Notes under the pieces: model-generated
Database searches by the model: none
Told to the model about the DNA's origin: nothing
What the model saw: only the letters and a program-made list of their open reading frames with translations
Part shown: positions 12,970 to 26,872 of the stretch, piece after piece
Numbering within the stretch: position 1 is the first letter of the stretch
Layout: each line of letters opens with the position of its first letter
Translations under genes and position numbers: made by a program
Origin: a virus
DNA length: 28,312 nt
Virus record (IMG/VR): IMGVR_UViG_3300030109_000861
Coordinates: 1 to 28,312 of that record
Direction: 5' to 3' (one strand)

Positions 12970-13226
12970 TAAACTTCTCCTATACATTTCATTTCAATTA
13001 CCCATGAGCGCGGAAGAACTATTTCCGCATCTCCCTCTGTTATTTCTTTATCTTCTCCTAAAATAAAATGAGGACATACAATAATGTAGTCCTCAGTATC
13101 TTCTAAGATTGTACCGCATGATATAACTGTAGAGGTTCTAAGGCTTTTAAGTTCCTTTAGTTCCCTCCAGCCCATGTTAGATCCACCTGTAGCGTCCTGC
13201 CATTTAACTAAGTAGATGTCATGCAC
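12969..13226 (-). CDS. conserved phage hypothetical protein, 85 aa
   Basis: Starts at GTG 13226-13224, inside the end of the 1066-aa gene. It is a small acidic beta-rich protein opening with YLVKWQDATGGSNMGW and containing STVISCGTILEDTEDYIIV and a late IVLPRSWVIEM. This layout recurs in short phage proteins of unknown function that begin with V-x-W-x-D-A. There is no membrane segment or catalytic motif. It is probably coupled to the large gene upstream. Confidence 0.65.
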   Translation of the reverse strand: MHDIYLVKWQDATGGSNMGWRELKELKSLRTSTVISCGTILEDTEDYIIVCPHFILGEDKEITEGDAEIVLPRSWVIEMKCIGEV

Positions 13227-16200
13227 AGTGCTTCATGCCTCTTGCTGTTAGCTTACCGCCTTTTCTAAATGGAACACCTGCTTTTGTCATAAAATCTTCA
13301 TGTGTTCTATCTTTAAAGACTGCATTTTTTCTTTTAGCTAAGACTAGTGGCCCTATTTGATATACTTTTTCTGCTGAAATAATTGGCTTCATCGTTTCTT
13401 TATCATAAAAATAAGAATGTCTGTATGGATTCATTCCAACTTGAATCCAATCATCACTGTTAATTAATTCTTCTGCTATTTTTCTAACGTCTTTAGGATT
13501 CATGTTTTCCCATTCACCAAACATTCTTGCTATGGTTGATTTGTTCATATCACCTTTAGCAATCTTTAAAGCTATGTTAGGACTACTTTTAAATGTAACA
13601 TTATTTAAAACTGCTGTTTGTCCATAACCAATAGAACTTCCTTTTTTTCCTAACCCATCATGTAAAGATACAATCCAAGTTCCATAATCTTCATAAGCAG
13701 GAATATCTAAACGTGCAGCAATTATTGCACCGTCCTTTATTGCTAAATTTTTTCCTAATATACCAGTTTTTCTTTTATTTTCATGTAAACTTGCAGCCAT
13801 TTCAAATTCACTAGGCTCTGGAGGAACTTCTTTTATTCGTTCAACTGGTAAATATAGTTTAACTTTTTCATCATATTGAAATGATGTAAGTTGTTTATCC
13901 TCATATGCTTTAACTATATTTTTCATTTCTTCTGATTGTGGTTTTTTATACGCAACAGCTTGAGTTTTAAATTCGTTTTGAGTTTCAGGTGTGAATTCAA
14001 TTTCAGTTTCATCTAAATTTTTATATGTGGTTTTCTCCGTATCTATTTTATTATTTTTAAAAACATTAGAAATAACTTCACCGCCTTTTGTTTTAAAAGG
14101 TTCATAGTCTTTTAGAAATTCTTTAGCTGCTTTTGTAACTAGTCTACCTGCACCATATATAACCCTACCAACTTCATCTCTTTTTTCAACACTTTTACTA
14201 TATGCATTATCAAGTGTTTGTTTTTCATAATCTGATAGTTGACTATACATTTGTTTGTATTGTGCTTTTAATTTTCTACCTCCACCAGAATAAATTTCTT
14301 TAAATTTTGTAAGGTCTATAAGTTTTTTAATAGTAGGTTCATCTACCCCCTGATCTAACATAGTATTCGCTAATTGATCTATAGTTTCTTTTATATTAAG
14401 AATTGCTTTTTGAGCATTTTTGTTTAACATAAAATCAACATTCCCATCATAATAATTAATAGTTTCTTCTTCTGTTAAAGTAAGACCTAGCCCTTTAGCG
14501 TTGTCTTCATTTAATTTTTGTACATGTTTTTCATATTCAGGATTACGTTTTTTTAAAAAGTTTTTAGCTGCCTTTACAACAAGTCTACCTGCTCCATACA
14601 TTCCCCTTGCTTTTAACTTACCGCCTTTCTGTTTAAAAGATCTAGGATCTTCTGGATCATATGACCCACCATACATGTTTTTAAATTGTTGAGGTTTAAA
14701 AAAGATATAAGACCAATGCCTGTCTTTATTAACAAACTTATTATCTATAATATATTTTTCATCTTTCTCAGGTTTAAATTTCTTTTTAATATCTTTTAAA
14801 TTTATTAAATGATCGGTGTCTGTGTCTAAACTAGATTCAACATCATTTACATACTTAACTCCATCAAAACCAAAAGAGCTTATCCATTTTTGAAAGTCGT
14901 GGTTTAATTGATAAACTCCAAATCTATAAATCATTCTAGGTATAATTTGTAATCTAGGTTTTTCATCAGGATAAGACATTATATCGTCATCTTTTGGTTG
15001 TTTTGTTAGACGATCATTTTTAAAATTAACAAGTTCATGTGCTTGTATTTTTAATTCAAGTAATCTATCTCGTTGTTGTTCTGTAATTTGATATGATTTA
15101 CCTAGCGTTCTTTTTATATTACGTAAGAATAGTTTTAAATCTCTACTACTAGGGTAATTATTTTCTGCTGCTGTTTCATAATCATCAGCTAATAAAATTT
15201 TATTAGCTTCCCAAGACATAGGTTCGCTATATGGAAAGACAAGAGGTTTTCTAATAATTCCATAGCCCTTCATAATTGTAAATGGTTTTACAGTTGCGTC
15301 AGGTTTCCTAAGAAATGCATACATATTATTATAATAGTTTACTTCATCTTTAGATATTGGTGTATGATTTCTACCGTCTATAGTTACCCTTTCTAAATCA
15401 AAAATAGTTCTATCAATTTTTTCTTTTTCTCTAAATCTAAAAGGTTCGTTAGGTATATCGTCAGATAGCTCAGTTAATATTGGTTCACCATACTCATCTA
15501 TTGGATAACCATTTGGGTGTAAAGTTTTTTCATTTCTAAAATCAGGGAGTCTTGTTTCAACATAGTCTATATGTTTATTTAATTCTTCAATATGTTTTTG
15601 TGATATTAAGCTCCACGCTTGCCCTAAAGATCCAGCATGTGTTCCAGTTTCAGAGGCTAATCCAAATTTAGTATCCCAATCAAGGTCTGTAGCTGTAGAA
15701 TAACTACGATATATCGGAACTGTTACATCAGATTGACGTTTAAGATCATCAAATGTATCTATAAACTTTCCTCCCAACTCTTCAGTTTGTTCTTCCATTG
15801 CGTTACTAGGAAACTGTTGACTAAATTTTTCTGTAAACGGATCTTTACTTATAGCGGTTCTTAATAGTTGTAATGTGTTTTGTTTACCAGCACTAGAAAG
15901 TTTTTTATATCCTGTATCTCTTTCTAATTGAAATTTTATAAACTTACTTATATCATCATTTAAATCTACTTCAGGTAAGTTATCAATTATTTCAAACTCT
16001 TGAAAAATATCTGAATGATCTTTATATAAAACATTTTGTTGTATTGTTGAATCTAATGCAAAACTTTTATCATGTTCTTTTTTTAGTTCTGTAAAGTATC
16101 TTGCTCTGTTTAAAAGTTGTTGTCCTTCTTCTTGTGAAAGTTTAGAAATATCACCACCTACTTTTTCTAAAGATGTTGTTCCTATTTCTTTGTGTAAAAC

Positions 16201-16419
16201 TTCTGAAGTATATTCATAAAGACCTTCTCGTTTTTTATCTTGTGCTTTTTGAGACATTTGATTAATACCCATGCTGTCAGCATAAGTTTCTACTTCATCT
16301 ATTGTTTTTATAGCTATATCATTTACAATATTTTTTTCTAATAACCCATTAGAATGTTGTTCAATTTTATCTGTTAAATAATCTTGAAAATGTTTTCTTA
16401 ATACTCTAGTCAATGCCAT
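13219..16419 (-). CDS. 1066-aa modular polyvalent protein, likely injected; ADP-ribosyltransferase-like region
   Basis: ATG 16419 follows AGGAAGATAATAA. Modules: a helical N-terminus (1-230); a region at about 236-595 resembling the ADP-ribosyltransferase domain of phage polyvalent proteins, with IYRSYSTATDLDW, GTHAGSLGQA (His261), GFDGVKYVNDVE (517-528) and an end motif SYIFFKPQQFKNMYGGSYDP; a duplicated YGAGRLVxKAAK linker (607-621 and 754-768); and a C-terminal module (913-1040) with GTWIVSLHDG, STIARMFGEW, QVGMNPYRHSYFYDK and IGPLVLAK, a motif set familiar from phage polyvalent proteins and of unknown function. It is the last large gene of the virion arm. It is probably packaged and ejected; a purely structural role is possible. 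Confidence 0.65.
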   Translation of the reverse strand: MALTRVLRKHFQDYLTDKIEQHSNGLLEKNIVNDIAIKTIDEVETYADSMGINQMSQKAQDKKREGLYEYTSEVLHKEIGTTSLEKVGGDISKLSQEEGQQLLNRARYFTELKKEHDKSFALDSTIQQNVLYKDHSDIFQEFEIIDNLPEVDLNDDISKFIKFQLERDTGYKKLSSAGKQNTLQLLRTAISKDPFTEKFSQQFPSNAMEEQTEELGGKFIDTFDDLKRQSDVTVPIYRSYSTATDLDWDTKFGLASETGTHAGSLGQAWSLISQKHIEELNKHIDYVETRLPDFRNEKTLHPNGYPIDEYGEPILTELSDDIPNEPFRFREKEKIDRTIFDLERVTIDGRNHTPISKDEVNYYNNMYAFLRKPDATVKPFTIMKGYGIIRKPLVFPYSEPMSWEANKILLADDYETAAENNYPSSRDLKLFLRNIKRTLGKSYQITEQQRDRLLELKIQAHELVNFKNDRLTKQPKDDDIMSYPDEKPRLQIIPRMIYRFGVYQLNHDFQKWISSFGFDGVKYVNDVESSLDTDTDHLINLKDIKKKFKPEKDEKYIIDNKFVNKDRHWSYIFFKPQQFKNMYGGSYDPEDPRSFKQKGGKLKARGMYGAGRLVVKAAKNFLKKRNPEYEKHVQKLNEDNAKGLGLTLTEEETINYYDGNVDFMLNKNAQKAILNIKETIDQLANTMLDQGVDEPTIKKLIDLTKFKEIYSGGGRKLKAQYKQMYSQLSDYEKQTLDNAYSKSVEKRDEVGRVIYGAGRLVTKAAKEFLKDYEPFKTKGGEVISNVFKNNKIDTEKTTYKNLDETEIEFTPETQNEFKTQAVAYKKPQSEEMKNIVKAYEDKQLTSFQYDEKVKLYLPVERIKEVPPEPSEFEMAASLHENKRKTGILGKNLAIKDGAIIAARLDIPAYEDYGTWIVSLHDGLGKKGSSIGYGQTAVLNNVTFKSSPNIALKIAKGDMNKSTIARMFGEWENMNPKDVRKIAEELINSDDWIQVGMNPYRHSYFYDKETMKPIISAEKVYQIGPLVLAKRKNAVFKDRTHEDFMTKAGVPFRKGGKLTARGMKHCA
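14110..14169 (-). repeat. internal repeat copy 2 (GRVIYGAGRLVTKAAKEFLK)
   Basis: Residues 751-770 of the 1066-aa protein, the second copy of the YGAGRLV-KAAK-FLK element, followed by KTKGGEV. A related RGVYGAGKTHSK occurs in the neighbouring 1071-aa protein. Confidence 0.8.
14554..14619 (-). repeat. internal repeat copy 1 (RGMYGAGRLVVKAAKNFLK)
   Basis: Residues 601-622 of the 1066-aa protein. The core YGAGRLVVKAAKNFLK matches copy 2 at 12 of 14 positions, and the DNA is also similar. A KGGKLKARGM lead-in precedes it; the same KGGKLTARGM occurs at the C-terminus of the protein. Confidence 0.8.
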
Positions 16420-16422
16420 TTA

Positions 16423-19400
16423 TTATCTTCCTAATTCGCCTAAAATATCTTTAGAAGACGCAAGCTCTTTCAAACTTAAACCAGCTTCCCTATCTATAGA
16501 ATATAATAATTTTCTATATTCTTTCATGTTGTCTTTACCTACAATTGTATTTCCTAATCCATATAAAGGAACTTTTGTACCTACAACAGTTGTTGGGCCA
16601 CGACCTAATGTTACAATATCACCTGCTACTGGCCCTAGAAAAGCAGCAGGAATACTCCAATAGTTACTTGAATATTCAGCAGCATTAGCAGTTCTTTTTC
16701 CAGTATCATATGCATGACTTAACCCACCCCATCTTGCAGCAGCATCAACACTTATTTCAAATGGATCTTTTTCATTCCAACCTTCTCCACGATCACGAAC
16801 ATAATTTAAATAACCAGCGGTATAAGTCATAATCATTGCTGTAGGAATTAATTTATAAGCTGCAACACTTTTATCTCTTACTAATTGTTTAGCTGCACCT
16901 TTTAAAATAGTATTTGAAAATGCTGTTGGGTATCCCATTAACTGTCCTATCAATGGATTTTGAGTATTGCCACCCAATCCACTTGTAAATGCTCTAGGTT
17001 TTAAACCTGATTCTCTACCAACATCTAATATAATATTACGTGAGTATCTTGATGCTCCGTTTAATATATTTCTAACATACCAATCTGTCTTAACATTAGC
17101 TCCTCTTTTTTTCCACTGTAAAGCTTCGTCAACATTTACTCCTAAATCAGCTAATCTATCTCTTGCGACTCTTGCTTTAGTGGATAATGTTTTACCTTCA
17201 AATTTAGCCAGTAAATCTATGTTGTCCATAATCATTCTTTTACCAGTAATAAAAGAAGTTGTTTGTACAAACTTTGTCCATTGATCTAATAAATTATATC
17301 TAAAAAATTTATTACTAACATTTTGCATTGTTTCATTACGTAAAGTTTCGCCAGCTAATCTATCAGCCATACTAACAGCACCCTGCTCCATCGCAATACC
17401 AAAACGCTGCATTTCTTCCCACGCTTCTTCCGCAGTTAAACCAAACCTATCTTGAAGTTGTTTATGTTGGTTGCCTGTAACTCTTTTAAAACTTAAATTA
17501 CTTGCATCTTTAAAACCTTTTAAAGAAGTAGTTAAACCAGCTTGTCCCATGTTTAAAAATATTTCAGTAAAACTTGTTACAGTTGCTAAACCTAAATAAG
17601 CTAAACGATTAGCTAAACCATAAGCATCTCTAGCTTTTCCTGATGGATTTAAACCTTCACCTGTTAGACCATTATATAAATCTAACATTCTTTCTCTTTC
17701 AGTTCTTGATAGTTGAATCCCTTCTTTTGAAAGATCATCTCTAATTCCATTTATCCATTTAGTTTCAAATTCTTTACTATCTTTTACACCTAAGATTCTT
17801 TTTTTAGCTAATATACTAGAGGCACTTTGAATGTATTTTAAAAAACTTTGTTGAACATCTTTGTTTAAAAACTCTTGATACTTAGCATCATACTCTAGTT
17901 TATTAAATTTTCTTTTGTTTAAAAAGAAACCACCACCAGAGCCACCACCAGCTAATTGATTTTGAATGTCTAACATTTCATCTATTAATTGATAAGCTTT
18001 TACTTGATTTTTAGCTTGACCATCTGCTATTAAAAGATCTGATAATCCTTTTTTATTTTTTTCTATAGCATTACGGTTCCATTCTCTAGGAACATAATCA
18101 TTTAATTTTTGAAAATTAGGATTAGCATCTTTTAATAAATCTCCTATATCACTATACAGTTGTTTCAATCTAATGGCAGTTAAGTTAACTGTTTTTGAAT
18201 GTGTTTTACCTGCACCATATACTCCACGCATTGCTGCCATTAAATCATCATTAACTTCATCATCTATTTTTCTAGTAACTTCATACATATTTTTTAAACC
18301 AGAAGTTTTTGTTACTGAAAGATCGTCTACGATAGATAAAAATCTCATTTTTAAACCACCGTTTATGTTATGTTGAGCTTCACTTAAATCTTCAACAACT
18401 CTTTTCTGTCCCGGCTTATAGCCAATTTGATATTCTTTTGTAATTCTTTCTGCTAATACTTTAGCTGTAGGAGAAACATCTTCGTAAGGAGTTAAGAAAG
18501 CAGTAGCTTTACCCATAAAACCTTTAGATGAAAAAGTTGTAACAGGTCTTAGTAATGCACGTTTTATATCGTTTCTTTTTACTTGTCCAACTTCTTGTTG
18601 TGCAGCAGCTAATAAATCACTAGCAACTTGGTCTTGTGTGGCTTGACCCCCACCTATTTCACGAATAAATTTTTGAAAGGCTGCTGAGTCTTTTATTTGA
18701 TTTTCTGTTATGTCTTTAATATCTAAAACATTTTCAATACCTTTTAAAGTTGCAACATTTGTATTTGTACTGTCTAGTAATACATCATCACCTGAAGCTA
18801 CAACTGTTGAAAGCTCACCATAAAAATCATCTTGATCTTGAGTCATGTCTTCTAATAATCTTGATTTATCTAAATCAGATTTATCAGCAAATAATTTATT
18901 CCACGCTGATGAAATTCCTTTACCAATAGCAGGTAACGCAATTGCACCACCAACCCCTAATCCTGCACCTAATGAAGCAGCCAATGCAACATCTGTATAA
19001 TCTTTTTCAGATCTAGCATTTGTTGTTATGTCAACATTTTGTTCTAGTTCTTCAGTAAGTCCCTCTAAACCACCACCATAAATAGCTCCAGTAGTTTTAG
19101 GACTAGCTGCAAAACGTGAGGTTATTTTTTTAACTGGAGTAGCAACTACATCTGCACCTTTTTTTACAGTATTCCATGCTCTTGCTGTTGCACCTAATCC
19201 ACTTAATGCAGCAGAAGAAGTTCCTCCTGTTGGTACAAAACTTATTGCAGTTAATAAACCTTCAGGGCTTGCAAGAATATCTGTTCCATAATCTTTTAGT
19301 GCTTTTTTCCATTCAGAACCGCCTTTAACTTCAGCACGTTCCCATTCGCTTTTTAAAAAATTATAATCTTGTTTTACATCTTCGGGTGCATTTTCTAATT

Positions 19401-19638
19401 GTAAATCATCACTTAATAGTGTACTTAAACGTATTGTCCTATCACGCATAAACTCTGATATATCATCGTTGCCGCCCCAAGCACCAAAGTTCCACCAGCT
19501 TTCTTTATTTTTTTCAAAATGATTTACTACATTTTCGTGAGCCTTAATAACTTTAGGGTCAGAATCAAAATCTTCTATTGTAAAACCTTTTTCATATGCC
19601 CTATATTCTTCTTCTATGTTATCAAAAAAATCACTCAT
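16423..19638 (-). CDS. 1071-aa internal virion (ejection) protein-like
   Basis: Very large, with Gly/Ala-rich membrane-active features like those of internal virion proteins that build the DNA ejection channel. A Gly/Ala/hydrophobic segment at 215-245 (VALAASLGAGLGVGGAIA) follows AIYGGGLEGLTEE; others lie at 676-700 (LAYLGLATVTSFTEIFLNM) and 930-947 (LIPTAMIMTYTAGYLNYV). A flexible AGGGSGGG linker lies at 563-570. The C-terminal third has FRYNLLDQWTKFVQ and PLIGQLMGYPTAFSN, a pattern seen in large polyvalent/ejection proteins of marine phages. No lysozyme or transglycosylase motif like that of T7 gp16 was seen. The start overlaps no gene; the 535-aa gene ends one base before it. Confidence 0.65.
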   Translation of the reverse strand: MSDFFDNIEEEYRAYEKGFTIEDFDSDPKVIKAHENVVNHFEKNKESWWNFGAWGGNDDISEFMRDRTIRLSTLLSDDLQLENAPEDVKQDYNFLKSEWERAEVKGGSEWKKALKDYGTDILASPEGLLTAISFVPTGGTSSAALSGLGATARAWNTVKKGADVVATPVKKITSRFAASPKTTGAIYGGGLEGLTEELEQNVDITTNARSEKDYTDVALAASLGAGLGVGGAIALPAIGKGISSAWNKLFADKSDLDKSRLLEDMTQDQDDFYGELSTVVASGDDVLLDSTNTNVATLKGIENVLDIKDITENQIKDSAAFQKFIREIGGGQATQDQVASDLLAAAQQEVGQVKRNDIKRALLRPVTTFSSKGFMGKATAFLTPYEDVSPTAKVLAERITKEYQIGYKPGQKRVVEDLSEAQHNINGGLKMRFLSIVDDLSVTKTSGLKNMYEVTRKIDDEVNDDLMAAMRGVYGAGKTHSKTVNLTAIRLKQLYSDIGDLLKDANPNFQKLNDYVPREWNRNAIEKNKKGLSDLLIADGQAKNQVKAYQLIDEMLDIQNQLAGGGSGGGFFLNKRKFNKLEYDAKYQEFLNKDVQQSFLKYIQSASSILAKKRILGVKDSKEFETKWINGIRDDLSKEGIQLSRTERERMLDLYNGLTGEGLNPSGKARDAYGLANRLAYLGLATVTSFTEIFLNMGQAGLTTSLKGFKDASNLSFKRVTGNQHKQLQDRFGLTAEEAWEEMQRFGIAMEQGAVSMADRLAGETLRNETMQNVSNKFFRYNLLDQWTKFVQTTSFITGKRMIMDNIDLLAKFEGKTLSTKARVARDRLADLGVNVDEALQWKKRGANVKTDWYVRNILNGASRYSRNIILDVGRESGLKPRAFTSGLGGNTQNPLIGQLMGYPTAFSNTILKGAAKQLVRDKSVAAYKLIPTAMIMTYTAGYLNYVRDRGEGWNEKDPFEISVDAAARWGGLSHAYDTGKRTANAAEYSSNYWSIPAAFLGPVAGDIVTLGRGPTTVVGTKVPLYGLGNTIVGKDNMKEYRKLLYSIDREAGLSLKELASSKDILGELGR

Positions 19639-19639
19639 T

Positions 19640-21247
19640 TTATTTATCTTCGCCCATGTTTAAAGTACGGTTATAAATTTCAAGAAATTCATTTAATCTT
19701 TTATTATCTCCTATTTTAAATACTGGAATTTGATCCATAAAATTAAGTATAGATATTTGTTGATGTGGGTGCATTTGTGAAAATTCAATTTTATATCTTT
19801 CTAATTTATTTTCTAATTTTTTTATTGTTGGTTCGTTTAGTTCTTTTCTTTTAATTAAACCTAAATCATCTATTGCTGCCATTATAACAATAGGATTATC
19901 ATGTCCGTCACTTATAAAATCAAATGAATCTCGATAATATTTAGAATCTTCTGGATCATCTGGATTAAGCATACCAAGTTTTTCTTGAAACCATCTACCA
20001 GTAACCGGAGTGCTTTTTGTTGCATTATAGTATAAGTTTACTGCCCTACCTGCAATTGCTCTTGAATTTGAAATATTAAAATCATAATCATTCTGTAAAC
20101 TTTCATTAAATAAATATAAATCTTGTCCTATTTGTTGTTTAATTTCTGCTGCTGCTTTTTCATTACCATCTGCTTTTTCTTCAACATATTCAACTATTTC
20201 TTCTCTATCTTTAGACATTCCTCTATTAATAAATTCTTGATAAGCTTGTCCTATTATTTGTTGAGGTAGCATAGCAGCACGTTCTCTAGTTCCTGCTTTT
20301 TGATTAGAAGCACCACCAAGATAAAAACTACCAGTAGGTTTACCGTCTGCATTTTTTCGAATAACTAAAATGTTGTCTTCACCAAATATATTTTTTGTTT
20401 TTTCTATTTCATAAGTGTCTGTATCATTCTTTGCAAATTTTTCAAACTTATCACCAAACATATTTTTAAGTGCATTACTTAATTCTGCTGATCTTGTAGC
20501 TCCTAAAGTTGGTGAGTGTTTTTTGTGAAAACTATCAAAGGCAGAAAATGTTCCTTGAATTTCACTAAGGTAAGGGTTTTCTGCTATTAATCTAGGCAAT
20601 GTTACATTTTCATTTTTACCTTTAAGTAAATTTATACCTTCACGTAATCTCCTAACTTCAATTGAAGATTCATTTCCTAATGCAGTATTTAATGCCGCCT
20701 TATAATTTTTTAAATTTTCACCACCTGCTGTCCTTACTTTAACTGCTTCATTGTATAAATTCTGTGTGTTATTAAACAAAACATTAAAGTCTTTATCAAC
20801 ATGCATTTTAGATAAAGTTAATATATCCGCAGTATTAGGATTTACTACACCTTCTTGAGCTAACATATTTTGAATTTTTGGAGCGTATACATTAGATATG
20901 TAGTAGTTACGCCAATATCCTTTTTCACCTAGCTTACTTTGTTTTGCTTCTTCATGTAATCTAATTTGTTCATTAGCTTGAGCTAGTATTCTATTTGCAT
21001 CTGCTGTTGCTGTAAGTGTAGCCTGATCATTAAAAAACTTTAAAGACTTATTACGCAACCGTTGATCCATTGTATCTTCATACAAGACTTTACCAAAATC
21101 TTTTACAATACCCCACATCTCTTGTCTTTGTAATTTATCGTCAAGATCTTTTTGTATCTGATTATTACGTCTTTGTATACCTTCAAATACCGCAGCAGCT
21201 TTTTTACTAGCACGAACATTTTCAGGAGCTTTTATAATTTCTGCCAT
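19640..21247 (-). CDS. 535-aa probable internal virion protein
   Basis: ATG 21247 follows TGAGGAAA. The sequence is mostly helical and charged. Residues 1-110 are a long Lys/Gln/Arg-rich helix region (RRNNQIQKDLDDKLQRQ; ANRILAQANEQIRLHEE) suggesting a coiled coil. No enzyme motif or membrane segment was found. Its size and its place between small virion-like genes and two giant ejection-like proteins match the T7 gp14-gp15-gp16 order by analogy only. Confidence 0.55.
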   Translation of the reverse strand: MAEIIKAPENVRASKKAAAVFEGIQRRNNQIQKDLDDKLQRQEMWGIVKDFGKVLYEDTMDQRLRNKSLKFFNDQATLTATADANRILAQANEQIRLHEEAKQSKLGEKGYWRNYYISNVYAPKIQNMLAQEGVVNPNTADILTLSKMHVDKDFNVLFNNTQNLYNEAVKVRTAGGENLKNYKAALNTALGNESSIEVRRLREGINLLKGKNENVTLPRLIAENPYLSEIQGTFSAFDSFHKKHSPTLGATRSAELSNALKNMFGDKFEKFAKNDTDTYEIEKTKNIFGEDNILVIRKNADGKPTGSFYLGGASNQKAGTRERAAMLPQQIIGQAYQEFINRGMSKDREEIVEYVEEKADGNEKAAAEIKQQIGQDLYLFNESLQNDYDFNISNSRAIAGRAVNLYYNATKSTPVTGRWFQEKLGMLNPDDPEDSKYYRDSFDFISDGHDNPIVIMAAIDDLGLIKRKELNEPTIKKLENKLERYKIEFSQMHPHQQISILNFMDQIPVFKIGDNKRLNEFLEIYNRTLNMGEDK

Positions 21248-21257
21248 TTTTATTTCC

Positions 21258-21827
21258 TCATTGACTTAATAAACTTTTACGTTCTGACAATAAACTTTCT
21301 ATTTGTGTTTGTGGAATATTTTCAATATCATCAGCTACATCACTAGGTAAAATTCCTTCAGGTGCAGACTTTAAATTATTTTCCATATTTTCTAAATTAG
21401 TTGTTTCTATTTTTTTATTTAAAGACATTCCTTGTGTTTTATTTTCAAAGTTTTCATTTGCTTCTTCATCTTCATCTATAAATACTGGATCAAGATTAAT
21501 ACGTTCACATAAAGCTAAAAGCATATAAGCTAAAGGCTCTGTTAATAATAGCATTAAATTAGAATCCCATTTACCTTCTGAAAATCCAGTAAATAAAATA
21601 CCTTCAACAATATCCATAAGAGGTGTACGTCTTTCAAGTAAATCTATAATTTGAATATAAGTATTATTTTCAATTAAATTACCCCATAAAAATCTAATTG
21701 CTTCGTGAACATCTGTATATTCTGGAGGACGTTCAAAAGGCATTGGATTGTTTGGATCATTAGTTAATGATTGTCCCGGTATAGGAGCTAATCCTTTTTG
21801 ATTTAATTTTGCTATCTCTGGATTCAT
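21258..21827 (-). CDS. 189-aa virion-associated protein, IPGQSLT type
   Basis: ATG 21827 follows GGAGG and overlaps the preceding stop (ATGA). The N-terminus carries PIPGQSLTNDPNNPMPFERP, then a helical core (AIRFLWGNLIENN; MDIVEGILFTGFSEGKWD; LLTEPLAYMLLALCERI) and an acidic, Asn/Glu-rich tail. Small proteins with the IPGQSLT...PPE opening are recurrent in marine phage structural clusters and are thought to be minor virion or head-assembly components; the exact function is unknown. Between 21248 and 21257 only the next gene's ribosome binding site is found. Confidence 0.65.
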   Translation of the reverse strand: MNPEIAKLNQKGLAPIPGQSLTNDPNNPMPFERPPEYTDVHEAIRFLWGNLIENNTYIQIIDLLERRTPLMDIVEGILFTGFSEGKWDSNLMLLLTEPLAYMLLALCERINLDPVFIDEDEEANENFENKTQGMSLNKKIETTNLENMENNLKSAPEGILPSDVADDIENIPQTQIESLLSERKSLLSQ

Positions 21828-23116
21828 TTTCTAGCCTCCGATGAAAACCTTTGCCAATCCCACCATGCTGCTGTATTACCATAAAAATTTCCATTTGCCA
21901 TATTGTTTTTAAATTGCAATGCATTAAATAATGTATCATCATATAAACTACCAACTGGAGGTTGTGTAGCATCATATTGAAACTGAGATACATTATAAGT
22001 TGGAGCTTGTGGAGTTCCAAAAACTTGTTTATCTGCTAAGTTACTTGCAAGGTTTGTTGCATAGGCTGTACCAAATTCTCCACCTTTTGTTTTTAAAAAA
22101 CTAACAAATTTATCAGGATCATTAACTGCATCTGTAATTTCTTTAAAACTTTTACTAACATGATCTTTTATTGAACTACTAAAACTTTTAGTATCTTGTT
22201 GTAATAAACTTGGTGTAGTTGTTTTACCACCCATTTGCTCACCTAAGAAATCTTCTGCCCTTTTAAAATCAACTTCAAACTTTTTAGGATCAGCTAAATC
22301 AAAACCTTGTGAAACATCATATGAATCTATAAACTCTTTAGCAGCTTCTACATCTACTGTAGGAGCTTTACCAAATAATCCTGCACCTTCTGATGGACGC
22401 TGATACATAGTGTCTGAAAACATACCTGTTTGTTGTTTAACTGGTAAACCATCAAGACTATCTATTTTACTTGCCATATCTTGAACTTGTCCCGATATTT
22501 CACTTCCTAAGTCTGTTGTTCCCTCTGCTAGTCTTTCATCAACAGATTTAAAAGGATCGTTCATAGCACGACCAATACCTTCTTCTAATTGTGCATCAAA
22601 AGCTCTTGATTCTATAGTAGATGTAAGCGTATCTTTAGAAAATAATCCTTTAGGCCCAAACAAATCTCCTTTAACATCAGTAAACATTGTTTGTAAAGAT
22701 TTACCAGCATTAGAAAAACTATAAGAACTTAAATCTTTACCAATTAATTTACCAATTCCTAGTTTATCTCCAACAGCACCTAATGTATTTTTAATAGCTC
22801 CTGTTACGCCTTTAGTAATATTCCCTACTGCACTCTTTAGGTTTCTACCTACATTCGCTGCAACATTTAAAAATTTACCTGCCCCATTAATAATTCCAGA
22901 AGCAACACCAGTATAATTTATCATACCTTGAGCCAGTTTAGCAAACATACCTCCGACCCCCGGCAGGAGAAACGACATAGCTAGTTGACCAAAAACACCA
23001 ATTTTACCCATAAATTTACCAAAAGATTTTACAGCTTTACGAATACGTCTACCTACACTTCTAACAAACCTAGATATAGGTTTAAAAGCTTTTTTAATAA
23101 ATGATCCTATTCCCAT
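21824..23116 (-). CDS. 430-aa basic, membrane-active virion protein
   Basis: ATG 23116 follows TTAGGAG. The first 45 residues are extremely basic and amphipathic (FIKKAFKPISRFVRSVGRR), followed by hydrophobic, Gly-rich stretches (FGQLAMSFLLPGVGGMFA at about 43-60; GVASGIINGAGKFLNVAANV). The rest is soluble and acidic-to-neutral with a QFQYDATQPP end. Basic/hydrophobic N-termini like this recur in marine phage internal or ejected proteins, where they could insert in the host membrane, so a gp14-like channel role is a reasonable guess. No catalytic motif was seen. Confidence 0.6.
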   Translation of the reverse strand: MGIGSFIKKAFKPISRFVRSVGRRIRKAVKSFGKFMGKIGVFGQLAMSFLLPGVGGMFAKLAQGMINYTGVASGIINGAGKFLNVAANVGRNLKSAVGNITKGVTGAIKNTLGAVGDKLGIGKLIGKDLSSYSFSNAGKSLQTMFTDVKGDLFGPKGLFSKDTLTSTIESRAFDAQLEEGIGRAMNDPFKSVDERLAEGTTDLGSEISGQVQDMASKIDSLDGLPVKQQTGMFSDTMYQRPSEGAGLFGKAPTVDVEAAKEFIDSYDVSQGFDLADPKKFEVDFKRAEDFLGEQMGGKTTTPSLLQQDTKSFSSSIKDHVSKSFKEITDAVNDPDKFVSFLKTKGGEFGTAYATNLASNLADKQVFGTPQAPTYNVSQFQYDATQPPVGSLYDDTLFNALQFKNNMANGNFYGNTAAWWDWQRFSSEARK

Positions 23117-23125
23117 TTGTTTCTC

Positions 23126-26100
23126 CTAAGTTACATTTACTACAGTTTGAGTTTGGTCTAAACCAACTGCTGTTTTAATTGCTGAAATCATACTACCAAT
23201 ATGATTACTTTTACCTTTTTCTCCTGCTGCTGCTTCATTACCAATTGCTGCAATATATAATTGAGTCTGTCTTGTTTCATCATTTTCATAAGACTGTCTA
23301 ATATAAGCAGCTTCATCACGCAACTGTTGATACATAAAAGCTTGTTCTGATGCTGACATTGCAAAAGCATTTTGAACATTAATCCTATTAGATTCATTTT
23401 GTGCAGCCGTATCCGCTAATGATGAATTACGTAAATAATTTAAATATGCTTGTTCAATTTGTACTGAGTTTTGCATATTAAATTGATAGCGTTGATCTTC
23501 ACGTTGTCGATTAAATATATCAACTTGTTTAGCCATTTCTGCATTTGTTATAGCAACTTGTATTTCTTGTCCTGCAACCCTTGCATCTTGTTGTTCAGTC
23601 AATTGCTCATTAAATTGTTTCATTTGATTTACTGACTGTGCATTAAATTGACTTGTTTGTGAAGCTAGTTGTGTCATAAATTGATTAATTTGATTTTCAC
23701 TAGTAGCATTAAATTGTCGTGCTGCGTTTTGTGCAGCAACATCAGAAAGTAATACTTGTTGTTGTTGTTGACCTGTAAGCATTGCAGCTTGTTGTTCATT
23801 ATTTAAATTTGCCATATCCATTTGTAAAAATGTTTGAGCGTTTTGTGCCTGTAGTTTTGTATTACCATCTAATGTAGCTATATCTAAACTTGCCATTGCT
23901 GTAGCATTTTGCATTGTGGCTTGTTGTTCAGCACTAAAATCTGCAAGTGTAGCAGACTGCATAAATTTACTATTTGCTAATTCTACTTGTTGTTCTATAT
24001 TAAACTTAGTTAAGTCTATATTTGCAACTGTTGAAGCATTTTGTACTGCTCGTTGTTGATCTACATTTAATTGTGCTAAGTTCATTTGTTGTGCAATCTG
24101 AGCAGATGTGGTATTTACTTGCATTGTCTTATTTAAGTTTGCAAGTTCTGTTTGTTGTGCTGCATTAAGATTATCTGCACCAGCTTGGTTTAATGCTGTT
24201 AAGTTTGCTAATCGCATTTGTTGTTCATTAGAAAGATTAGCTACTTCCATTTGCTGTTTAAAACCAGCGTTCTTAGATAAGAAATCCGCAGCTACTTGCA
24301 TTTCAACTAGACGTTCTTGATTTTGTGCCGTAACATTTTCACGTTCAGTTGTACTTAATAATTGAAGTTCGGCAAGTTCTACTTGTTGTTCATTGCCTAG
24401 TTCTTGTGCATTAATAGCTTGTTGATTCTGAGCATTAAGTGTAGCAGTTTGTTGTTGGTTTTGAAGATTTTGAAGTCTTGATACTTGTTCTCTTTCAGCA
24501 GAAGTTAATAATGCTTGTTGACTAAACTGACTTTGAAGCGTTGACATGTTCTGTGCAAACTGTGCAGTCTGAGAAGATGCAGTTTGTCTATTAGAAAGAT
24601 TAGCCATACGTATTTGCATATCAGCAGTTGTCTGTGCAAGATTAGCTTGTTGCTGATTAGAAAGATTTTGTGCTGCTCTAGTTTGTAAAGCTTGTGCATT
24701 TGATTGCGCTATCGGCATAGCACTTTGTATAATTGCATTAAAAAGAGAATCTCTTCCAACACTTGAAACATTTAACCCACGTTGCGCTAAGTTGCTTTCA
24801 ACAAGCTCTACGGCTGGTCTAGCCCATATAGGTACTTCTCCGGTATCCATACCAGCCATTAAAGTTTCCATTTGTGAAGACACTAAAGCTTCAGTAGGTA
24901 ATGCTGCTATAGCTGCTTGTACTTCTACTGGTTGTGTATCTACCATTTCTTCAACAACAACAGGATCTTCAACAATTATAGATGTTAAATTTTCTGGTAT
25001 GTTTCCAACTTGAGCAATCATTTCTGCTGCTGCACCTTTAGCTGCTTCACCTGTAAAGTTTCTGGCTTGTGCTGCATCATAACCAACAGCACTTATTATT
25101 TGTGCCGCTTGACCTTCATTAGCTGTTCCGGTTAATGCTTGTCGTTGTTGTCTTTCTGCATCAGGAGTAGAAGCTAATTCAATAGTTGCTCCAGTAACTT
25201 TATCAATCATAGCATTAGTTGAAAGATCAAACCCTACTGTTTGTGCCAGTGCTGCTTTTTCGTCAAGATTTTTTCTAGTAGCTGCAATTGCTTCTCTTGT
25301 TAAACCTTGATTTTGTATAGCAGATTGAATTGCACCATCACTTAGTTCACCTTTAGCTGCTGAAACCGCTAATGGAGAACCAGCTTGTGCAGCATCCATT
25401 CTTGATACACCCATTCTTCCTGCTCGTGCCGTAGAAACACCAGTAATTCTTTGCGCTCTTTGACCAATATCTGGTGTAGCTTGTGGAGCAGTAATACGAT
25501 CACCACCTGTTAAATAATTACTACTTAACCAATTTATAGCTTGACCTCTAGGATCACCATCTAATTTAAATTGATCTCTAATAGATTCTGTATCAACACT
25601 TTCTGCAACCATTGTTGGAGCTGTTGTATATTCAGGTGTTTGAATAGGTTGTCTTGGCCCAAAACCTGTATCACCAACAATAACTGTTTGATTTTGTTCT
25701 GCGTCAGCATTTAGTGCTTCAGCTTCAGCCATTAAACGAGGGAACCATTCCATTTGAGCATCAGTCGCAGCTTTCCAATTATAATTATTATATTTTAATT
25801 CTGGATTACCTGTTGTTGGATTATATCGTCCTTGGACAATCATATCCCTACCTTCGGATGTTGTATAGGCTTTTCTAAATACTAAAACATTGTTTGTTGT
25901 TGTTACAGTTACAGGATTAACAACAACAGGTCTACCTCCTCCGGGCATAATTCGTGTTGATCTTTCTGTATTTATATCAGGATCAGTTTCTTCATCAATT
26001 TGATTTTCAGGAACCTCATCAAATGTTTCTTCTTCTTCTTCAGGTTTAAAAGGTGGTATATATGTTGATGTACCATCTGGCTTTGTTTCTTTAACGCCAC

Positions 26101-26872
26101 CTTCAGCCGTATATTCACTTAGTAAACCATCGTCTGTTGTTACAGACATAGTAGTTCGCATAGGATCAGGATCAATTGCTGCGGCTTCTCTTGCAGCTAT
26201 TTGAGCTTGTCTTGCTTCTTGTAGTTCTGTAACAAAAGCATTTGCTTCTTCTTTTGTACTAAAAACAGATTGATCACCGGGAAACCCACCAAGAAATCTA
26301 CCATCGTCTAGTTCTCTTACATATTCAAATGTTCCGGGTGTTGAACCAGCAGCATCAAAAGTTTTTTTAGTTCTTTGTTGTGCTGCTACAGGAGACTGTT
26401 CTGCTACAGGTGCTACAGGTGGTCTTCTGACTGAAACAGGAGTTTGAGCTACAGGTTCTTTAGTAGGTCGTGTAACTACAGTTTGTGGTGTAGTAGTAAC
26501 TACAGGTTCTTTAGTAGGTCGTGTAATTACAGCTTGTGGTGTAGTAGTAACCGTAGGTCTTGGACGTAATACCCCACCAGTTTCATCTGGAACTACAGGT
26601 TTTGGTTGTGGTTTTGTAGGTTTACGTGGTGGAGTAACCGTTGGTCTAACAGGTGGTTGTACTGGAGCAGGTGGAGAAGAAGAAAACGGAGATGTAAAAG
26701 TTCCTCTAGTTCCAGTAAAACCAGATATAGGATTATTTGGTCGCGTAGATGTAACAGGTGCAGACACAGGTTTTTTAGTTTCTGCTGCTACTTTTTGTTG
26801 TGCCTGTTCTTGCGCTCGTTTAATTGCAGCAGCCGATGCTCTACCGCCTCTTTGTGATTTTTTTCTAGCCAT
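23126..26872 (-). CDS. 1248-aa Pro-rich/Gln-rich repeat protein of the virion
   Basis: ATG 26872 follows AGAGGAA. Four zones: a basic start; a Pro/Thr/Val-rich zone to about residue 180 with a 51-bp tandem repeat; a mixed acidic middle; and a Gln/Asn/Ala-rich second half, predicted helical, with 22-residue units (for example LTKFNIEQQVELANSKFMQS). Near the C-terminus a Gly/Ala segment (IAAIGNEAAAGEKGKSNHIG) precedes a short hydrophobic tail. There is no Cys-rich, enzyme or membrane domain. Long Gln/Asn helical proteins are found among phage tail, fibre and internal proteins, so this one is most likely a particle protein. It follows the lysis gene and precedes the 430-aa protein. Confidence 0.65.
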   Translation of the reverse strand: MARKKSQRGGRASAAAIKRAQEQAQQKVAAETKKPVSAPVTSTRPNNPISGFTGTRGTFTSPFSSSPPAPVQPPVRPTVTPPRKPTKPQPKPVVPDETGGVLRPRPTVTTTPQAVITRPTKEPVVTTTPQTVVTRPTKEPVAQTPVSVRRPPVAPVAEQSPVAAQQRTKKTFDAAGSTPGTFEYVRELDDGRFLGGFPGDQSVFSTKEEANAFVTELQEARQAQIAAREAAAIDPDPMRTTMSVTTDDGLLSEYTAEGGVKETKPDGTSTYIPPFKPEEEEETFDEVPENQIDEETDPDINTERSTRIMPGGGRPVVVNPVTVTTTNNVLVFRKAYTTSEGRDMIVQGRYNPTTGNPELKYNNYNWKAATDAQMEWFPRLMAEAEALNADAEQNQTVIVGDTGFGPRQPIQTPEYTTAPTMVAESVDTESIRDQFKLDGDPRGQAINWLSSNYLTGGDRITAPQATPDIGQRAQRITGVSTARAGRMGVSRMDAAQAGSPLAVSAAKGELSDGAIQSAIQNQGLTREAIAATRKNLDEKAALAQTVGFDLSTNAMIDKVTGATIELASTPDAERQQRQALTGTANEGQAAQIISAVGYDAAQARNFTGEAAKGAAAEMIAQVGNIPENLTSIIVEDPVVVEEMVDTQPVEVQAAIAALPTEALVSSQMETLMAGMDTGEVPIWARPAVELVESNLAQRGLNVSSVGRDSLFNAIIQSAMPIAQSNAQALQTRAAQNLSNQQQANLAQTTADMQIRMANLSNRQTASSQTAQFAQNMSTLQSQFSQQALLTSAEREQVSRLQNLQNQQQTATLNAQNQQAINAQELGNEQQVELAELQLLSTTERENVTAQNQERLVEMQVAADFLSKNAGFKQQMEVANLSNEQQMRLANLTALNQAGADNLNAAQQTELANLNKTMQVNTTSAQIAQQMNLAQLNVDQQRAVQNASTVANIDLTKFNIEQQVELANSKFMQSATLADFSAEQQATMQNATAMASLDIATLDGNTKLQAQNAQTFLQMDMANLNNEQQAAMLTGQQQQQVLLSDVAAQNAARQFNATSENQINQFMTQLASQTSQFNAQSVNQMKQFNEQLTEQQDARVAGQEIQVAITNAEMAKQVDIFNRQREDQRYQFNMQNSVQIEQAYLNYLRNSSLADTAAQNESNRINVQNAFAMSASEQAFMYQQLRDEAAYIRQSYENDETRQTQLYIAAIGNEAAAGEKGKSNHIGSMISAIKTAVGLDQTQTVVNVT
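23750..24244 (-). repeat. 22-residue (66-bp) degenerate repeats in the 1248-aa protein
   Basis: Read on the minus strand, seven 22-residue units and one 11-residue half unit follow without gaps, starting at 24244, 24178, 24112 (half), 24079, 24013, 23947, 23881 and 23815. The consensus is hydrophobic-A-x-L/F-N-x-E-Q-Q at the unit start. The units differ in DNA, so they are old. An 11/22-residue period is typical of extended amphipathic helices or right-handed coiled coils. Confidence 0.85.
26454..26552 (-). repeat. 51-bp tandem repeat, two copies
   Basis: The second copy begins at 26505, exactly 51 bases after the first at 26454, and the copies are nearly identical. Each encodes 17 residues of the type TTPQxVxTRPTKEPV in the Pro-rich zone of the 1248-aa protein. 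The high identity marks a recent duplication or slippage. Confidence 0.85.

Follow-up and report, generated by a model that had tools for sequence, protein, structure and literature searches.

The window analysed here is a stretch of 28,312 nucleotides from a virus (IMG/VR record IMGVR_UViG_3300030109_000861, positions 1 to 28,312). Its minus strand encodes a Gln/Asn-rich repeat protein, followed by ORFs of 430, 189, 535, 1071 and 1066 amino acids; the features are listed in Table 1. The N-terminal 640 residues of the repeat protein form a region far longer than in most relatives, whose whole length is 459-1325 amino acids. The head domain carries the motif P-x-W-A ... L-A-x-R-G-L-x-x-S-S ... 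A-x-P-I-A, with a mean column identity of 61% (13 sequences in alignment A2), and the C-terminal domain the motif QFN ... WRR ... TANTAA-N ... WQxxRD ... EN..R, in which the window protein has YLR for WRR.

Table 1. Features of the repeat protein gene and of the genes that follow it.
Feature	Position	Strand	Evidence or remark
Gln/Asn-rich repeat protein, 1248-aa ORF	23126..26872	(-)	tblastn homologs in 24 phage records, e.g. HTVC115P gp47, HMO-2011 gp25, Slicky01, CHOED, phiM6
N-terminal region, aa 1-640	24953..26872	(-)	Start Pro/Thr-rich
Conserved helical head domain, aa 655-730	24683..24910	(-)	Alignment A2
Full 11-residue array, aa 720-1131	23480..24715	(-)	Modulo-11 spacing in relatives, and register
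Segment of the first-pass annotation, aa 877-1041	23750..24244	(-)	7.5 x 22 residues
Conserved C-terminal helical domain, aa 1114-1218	23219..23533	(-)	Alignment A1
430-aa ORF, directly downstream	21824..23116	(-)	Relatives in at least 135 loci; same slot in syntenic phages
189-aa ORF, conserved cluster	21258..21827	(-)	
535-aa ORF, conserved cluster, gp15-like position	19640..21247	(-)	
1071-aa ORF, large internal-virion-like protein	16423..19638	(-)	PHROG 7348, E 7.5e-166 (labelled endolysin)

The annotated phage relatives of the repeat protein, nearly all labelled "hypothetical protein" and one "huntingtin", belong to Pelagibacter phages (HTVC115P, 103P, 104P and 033P), roseophages (CRP-1, 2, 3, 9, 13, 207, 345 and 603), Puniceispirillum phage HMO-2011, Vibrio phage CHOED, Aeromonas and Pseudoalteromonas phages, Rhizobium phages and Sinorhizobium phage phiM6. 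IMG/VR holds hundreds of relatives at least, and seven loci were found in bacterial genome bins, in marine Gram-negative MAGs. These matches place the repeat protein in a large family of HMO-2011-type and related podoviruses, which are marine phages of an abundant group, with a common layout of variable N-terminus, conserved head domain, array and conserved C-terminal domain. The RCA relatives are short-tailed (PMC6918029). Vibrio phage Peru-2, considered as a relative, was rejected, as it is T7-like according to its structure paper. For the repeat protein itself, no convincing match to a curated family, tape measures included, was obtained in Pfam, NCBIfam or PHROG, and no sequence match in the PDB.

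The first-pass annotation, made from the letters of the window, had described an array of seven and a half 22-residue units at 23750-24244. This array is confirmed: its 165 residues are exactly 7.5 x 22, and the consensus h-A-x-L/F-N-x-E-Q-Q is present. Its range, in contrast, was drawn too short, as an unbroken register runs over ~aa 721-1089 in a 22-position profile and the conserved spacing covers aa 720-1131, giving ~410 residues, more than twice 165. The identity autocorrelation has z = 7.3 at lag 22, 5.0 at lag 44 and 3.9 at lag 11 for aa 877-1041, and 8.2, 7.3 and 6.5 at the same lags for aa 715-1130. At the DNA level TRF detected no tandem repetition of the unit in the window, which rules out a recent DNA tandem duplication there and indicates that the array is old.

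To compare array lengths across the family, I took as head anchor the Pro of P-[ILMVT]-A and as tail anchor the aromatic residue of QFN/QWN. Among the matches listed, the spacing between these is 4 modulo 11 in 312/312 distinct proteins; one divergent ORF (L406), whose head lacks the P-x-A anchor, was excluded from this count. In the window protein the spacing is 411 residues, or 37 x 11 + 4. The choice of anchor matters, since the head domain has shifts of 1-6 residues: approximate head anchors put 11/214 proteins off the lattice, exact anchors 0/214. Because the sequences are kin, the meaningful count is that of distinct lengths, of which 22/22 lie on the lattice (103, 125, 136, 147, 158, 169, 202, 213, 224, 257, 268, 290, 301, 323, 400, 411, 422, 433, 521, 631, 741 and 851 among the matches listed). 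The arrays of CRP-1, HTVC115P and phiM6 measure 213, 301 and 136 residues, respectively. As a control, the distances from start to head anchor and from tail anchor to stop spread over all eleven residues modulo 11. Since all members share this spacing and the flanks follow no such rule, 11 is the true unit. The first-pass annotation had reached the same period from the half unit; the period stands, but its proof is the modulo-11 rule over 312 homologs, not the half unit.

Odd numbers of 11-residue units are common, with spacings of 4 modulo 22 in 98/312 members among the matches listed and 15 in the others, and no indels of 1-3 residues were seen within the arrays of these 312 members. Steps of 110 residues recur (147-257, 213-323-433, 290-400 and 301-411-521-631-741-851). 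In long members the 110-residue modules are recognisable as duplicates, with 57-77% DNA identity over the best 165-nt stretch in the longer relatives versus <=46% at control lags. As read from these sequences, the array evolves in length by gain or loss of whole 11-residue units, often 110 residues at once.

An 11-residue hydrophobic period is present, as the first-pass annotation had anticipated, in harmonics other than 3.667. In the 165-residue segment the hydrophobicity periodogram reaches a normalised power of 17.4 at period 2.75 (= 11/4; estimated p ~1e-6, corrected for the frequencies tried). Over the whole window array the power is 0.4 at 11/3 (3.667), 19.7 at 11/4 and 15.3 at 11/5, and the family medians are 0.67, 9.3 and 4.8, with 2% of the 312 members above 3 at 11/3. 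The hydrophobic amplitude is 0.007 [0.003-0.015] at 11/3 versus ~0.15 at both 11/4 and 11/5. On an alpha helix the two-faced harmonic is 11/6, and 11/5 is its alias. As a positive control, the tape measure of Staphylococcus phage 69 gave 45.9 at 11/3 and ~1 at 11/4 with the same script (best 165-residue window).

I then mapped the eleven positions on a helical wheel, whose angles presuppose 3.667 residues per turn. Position r0 (0 deg) is Gln at a frequency of 0.53; r4, r8 and r1 (33-98 deg) are hydrophobic; r5, r9 and r2 (131-196 deg) are Asn (0.62), then charged; r6, r10 and r3 (229-295 deg) are Ala/Leu, Gln and Leu/Met; and r7 (327 deg) is Gln/Ser/Asn/Thr. Placed on an alpha helix, the array thus carries a pair of hydrophobic seams that lie almost opposite each other, separated by a neutral Gln/Ser/Asn stripe on one side and an Asn/charged stripe on the other. 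The seams are separated by 198 deg [196-201] via the charged side and by 162 deg via the neutral Gln side. If N such helices close into a tube, their seams lie 180 - 360/N deg apart on the inner side. An inner angle of 162 deg therefore fits a tube of large diameter or a sheet with little curvature, which is a statement of geometry and not a measured subunit number. The two-faced pattern fits side-by-side packing in such a sheet or tube, and speaks against both a helix lying on a membrane and a fibre with a single core. A right-handed coiled coil with one core, also suggested in the first-pass annotation, needs power at 3.667, which is absent here though the one-faced control gives 45.9; the missing 11/3 component rules out one-faced amphipathic helices and single-core coiled coils alike.

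The array is rich in Ala, Gln, Leu and Met (Q 17.9%, N 12.8%, Gln+Asn ~30%), and its 42,965 residues among the matches listed include 4 Pro, all at one register, and 0 Cys. Both single-chain AlphaFold models are all-alpha. They break aa 910-1040 into 14-residue helices and extended stretches of 7-8 residues, with a 22-residue period; the deeper run (87 sequences) has moderate confidence, with a pLDDT of 73-84 over this region and a pTM of 0.57. According to the CCfrag report, AlphaFold can introduce spurious bends when the long helices of an oligomer are modelled as single chains. Mean-field covariation (277 sequences, ~48 effective) is strongest at i+3 and i+4 and has smaller peaks at 7, 11 and 22; the i+3/i+4 signal is 1.52 [0.98-2.14] in the AlphaFold "loops" versus 1.50 [1.09-1.94] in the helices. 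Composition, models and covariation support the long helix that had been proposed. A continuous helix is probably the better description of the array, though storage as a folded monomer is a genuine alternative. Disorder, named beforehand as the outcome that would count against a helix, is unlikely, and a disordered low-complexity tract is ruled out by the perfect 11-residue lattice, the near absence of Pro and the helical covariation. No significant match to a known fold was found with Foldseek against the PDB or with VIA-align; the PDB entries that came nearest are designed helical repeat proteins (7udn), with a non-significant E of 0.21. Three BFVD matches (E 1e-8 or better, 32-45% identity) are apparently of the same family.

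The order of genes around the array is likewise conserved. All annotated relatives examined, and many IMG/VR loci, have the Gln-rich gene, then a gene or genes of ~60-450 aa, then genes of ~190 aa, 360-930 aa and 820-1890 aa. Ejection operons are ordered gp14-gp15-gp16 (PMC8954989), and this likeness would place the repeat protein in an ejection-protein cluster; a figure legend applies the label internal virion protein D to RCA/CRP phages (PMC6918029). No virion proteomics or imaging for these phages was found in the literature, and the term "virion protein" of the first-pass annotation is an assumption. In the window two ORFs of more than 1000 aa (16423-19638 and 13219-16419, minus strand) close the cluster; in most relatives a single gene of 820-1890 aa takes their place. 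The ORF at 13219-16419 has no homolog among the loci compared, and a C-terminal match to PF25735 (mycobacteriophage L5 gp82, E 3e-6).

The 430-aa protein has a strongly cationic amphipathic N-terminus, a strong one-faced helical periodicity that no other protein of the cluster shows (power 17.5 in the range 3.4-3.8) and a weak PHROG tape-measure match (E 0.00095). It is a candidate membrane-active partner of the repeat protein. The slot after the Gln-rich gene holds a cell-wall hydrolase (PF07486) in CRP-603 (L025 8838-9779) and a PHROG endolysin match in CRP-9 (L026 8860-9789); no such match was found in this slot in HTVC115P or Slicky01. In HTVC115P, an HlyC-family gene (RTX toxin acyltransferase, PF02794, E 1e-15; L002 15663-16112) lies between the genes for the Gln-rich and a 417-aa protein, and several IMG/VR relatives with a 301-residue array have a ~150-aa ORF in the same slot. 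Going by this match, the HlyC-family protein might acylate a neighbouring membrane-active ejection protein.

Three known systems resemble parts of this arrangement. Tape measures with 11-residue repeats, from Staphylococcus phage 69 and Clostridium and Bacillus prophages (PMC3271669), have, like the Gln-rich family, gapless 11-mers and whole-unit length changes, and are likewise encoded in a morphogenesis or DNA-delivery region. They differ in having one hydrophobic face, with a Trp/Phe marker every 11 residues, high 11/3 power and 10% Gln+Asn, whereas the Gln-rich family has two seams, no one-sided face, about three times that amide content and short-tailed relatives; the gene order is also different, as the tape measure gene lies between the tail chaperones and the distal tail protein of a long-tailed phage. 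In the DNA pilot protein H of phiX174, ten alpha helices form a tube 170 A long whose lumen is mostly Gln/Asn/Arg (PMC7354561). Like the array, H has long Gln/Asn-rich helices; its amides line a DNA-conducting tube, and side-by-side packing is proposed for the array. H is an oligomeric alpha-helical barrel, with which the two-seam geometry of the array is compatible (only single chains were modelled). No sequence similarity to H was found, although distant homology of helices may escape detection; a strict 11-residue two-faced pattern is missing from the H core (residues 151-271; power of 0.7 at 11/5), and phiX174 is an ssDNA microvirus. The gene clusters of T7 (gp14/gp15/gp16) and P22 (gp7/gp20/gp16) also end in a very large protein (PMC8954989), in short-tailed phages of Gram-negative hosts as here. 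However, gp14-like proteins have ~200 aa and, unlike the Gln-rich protein, no 11-residue array. In a comparison confined to the downstream proteins (four profiles) and T7 gp13-16, hmmsearch gave only weak scores, none convincing, and no sequence similarity was detected. By analogy, the Gln-rich protein perhaps works like phiX174 H. It shares its repeat arithmetic with the tape measures and corresponds in full to neither.

I tentatively propose that the repeat protein could be the ejected alpha-helical conduit of the HMO-2011-type podovirus ejection apparatus. The array would be a continuous, nearly straight alpha helix on an 11-residue lattice, at ~3.67 residues per turn. Because the seams face almost opposite ways, every helix could bind one neighbour at each of them, and several aligned copies would make a sheet that curls into a closed tube, with the narrow uncharged Gln/Ser/Asn stripe towards the lumen and the Asn/charged stripe outside. 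After adsorption the protein would exit the head together with its neighbouring cluster proteins, the head and tail domains linking the tail and the 430-, 189-, 535- and 1071-aa proteins to the tube, and the short tail would thereby be lengthened across the envelope for DNA passage. On this proposal length would change only in multiples of 11 because other indels would break the seams. The earlier suggestion of an extendable structure or membrane-lining tube during ejection thus survives, through the two-seam pattern, as a possible tube, and is lost as a membrane-lying helix. Against a conduit stands the single-chain AlphaFold prediction for aa 910-1040, which is not one rod. The main problem is length: arrays of 103-851 residues would measure ~15-128 nm if fully straight, a spread that a plain envelope-spanning tube leaves unexplained.

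The AlphaFold prediction points instead to an alpha-solenoid, in which a 14-residue helix and an extended connector per 22 residues would build a compact superhelix in the head around the portal, as an internal core scaffold without a tube. Two AlphaFold runs agree on this fold, its closest look-alikes are the designed repeat proteins named above, lag 22 often exceeds lag 11 and has a small covariation peak, the four array prolines share one register, and T7 has an ordered internal core of ejection proteins (PMC8954989). I nevertheless judge it rather unlikely: couplings at i+3/i+4 are undiminished across the predicted connectors, the "loops" are nearly without proline and would tolerate the indels of 1-3 residues that were not seen, odd unit numbers are common, and the bends may be of the spurious kind. 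Another reading is a tape-measure-like ruler, with the 11-residue units as markings and the array setting the length of an internal core, tail extension or conduit. Tape measures with gapless 11-residue arrays do vary by entire units (44 residues in Bacillus prophages; PMC3271669), and the Gln-rich family obeys the same arithmetic, with its 110-residue ladder. A ruler is still distinctly unlikely, as the hydrophobic design is the opposite of that of the tape measure control, relatives of described morphology are short-tailed, and downstream gene lengths, by inspection, do not track array length.

Two further readings place the protein outside the particle or on a membrane. A long, Gln/Asn-rich protein of variable length, encoded in several phages just after the tail and fibre genes, could be an external fibre or whisker, as a dimeric or trimeric coiled coil. 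This is very unlikely: without power at 3.5 or 3.667 the array has no single set of hydrophobic core positions, conserved head and tail domains stand in place of a variable receptor-binding tip, and the gene keeps a fixed position beside large ejection-type genes. The first-pass annotation had suggested an amphipathic helix of the apolipoprotein or synuclein type lying on a membrane, to which the 11-residue period and helical composition would be suited. Such a helix needs one hydrophobic face, which the family lacks; already contradicted by the absent 3.667 component, it is most improbable.

A bolder version of the ejected conduit, which I consider unlikely, is a modular, length-programmable, Gln-lined DNA conduit that marine podoviruses make from the ejected protein, with two-faced helices side by side and extendable by 110-residue (~16.5 nm) modules. 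The architecture of such a tube would differ both from the T7 tunnel and from the coiled coils of tape measures. The array provides a checkable rule, namely indels only in multiples of 11, two seams and a Gln stripe, and the natural length series allows conduit and array length to be compared directly between isolates. It also distinguishes two ways in which phages use an 11-residue helix, one-faced in tape measures and two-faced in the Gln-rich family; a literature search on hendecads returned nothing directly relevant. The longest arrays, of 851, 741 and 631 residues (L101, from 314 onward, L046 and L109, respectively), show visible 110- and 55-residue sub-repeats and provide material for work on duplication history.
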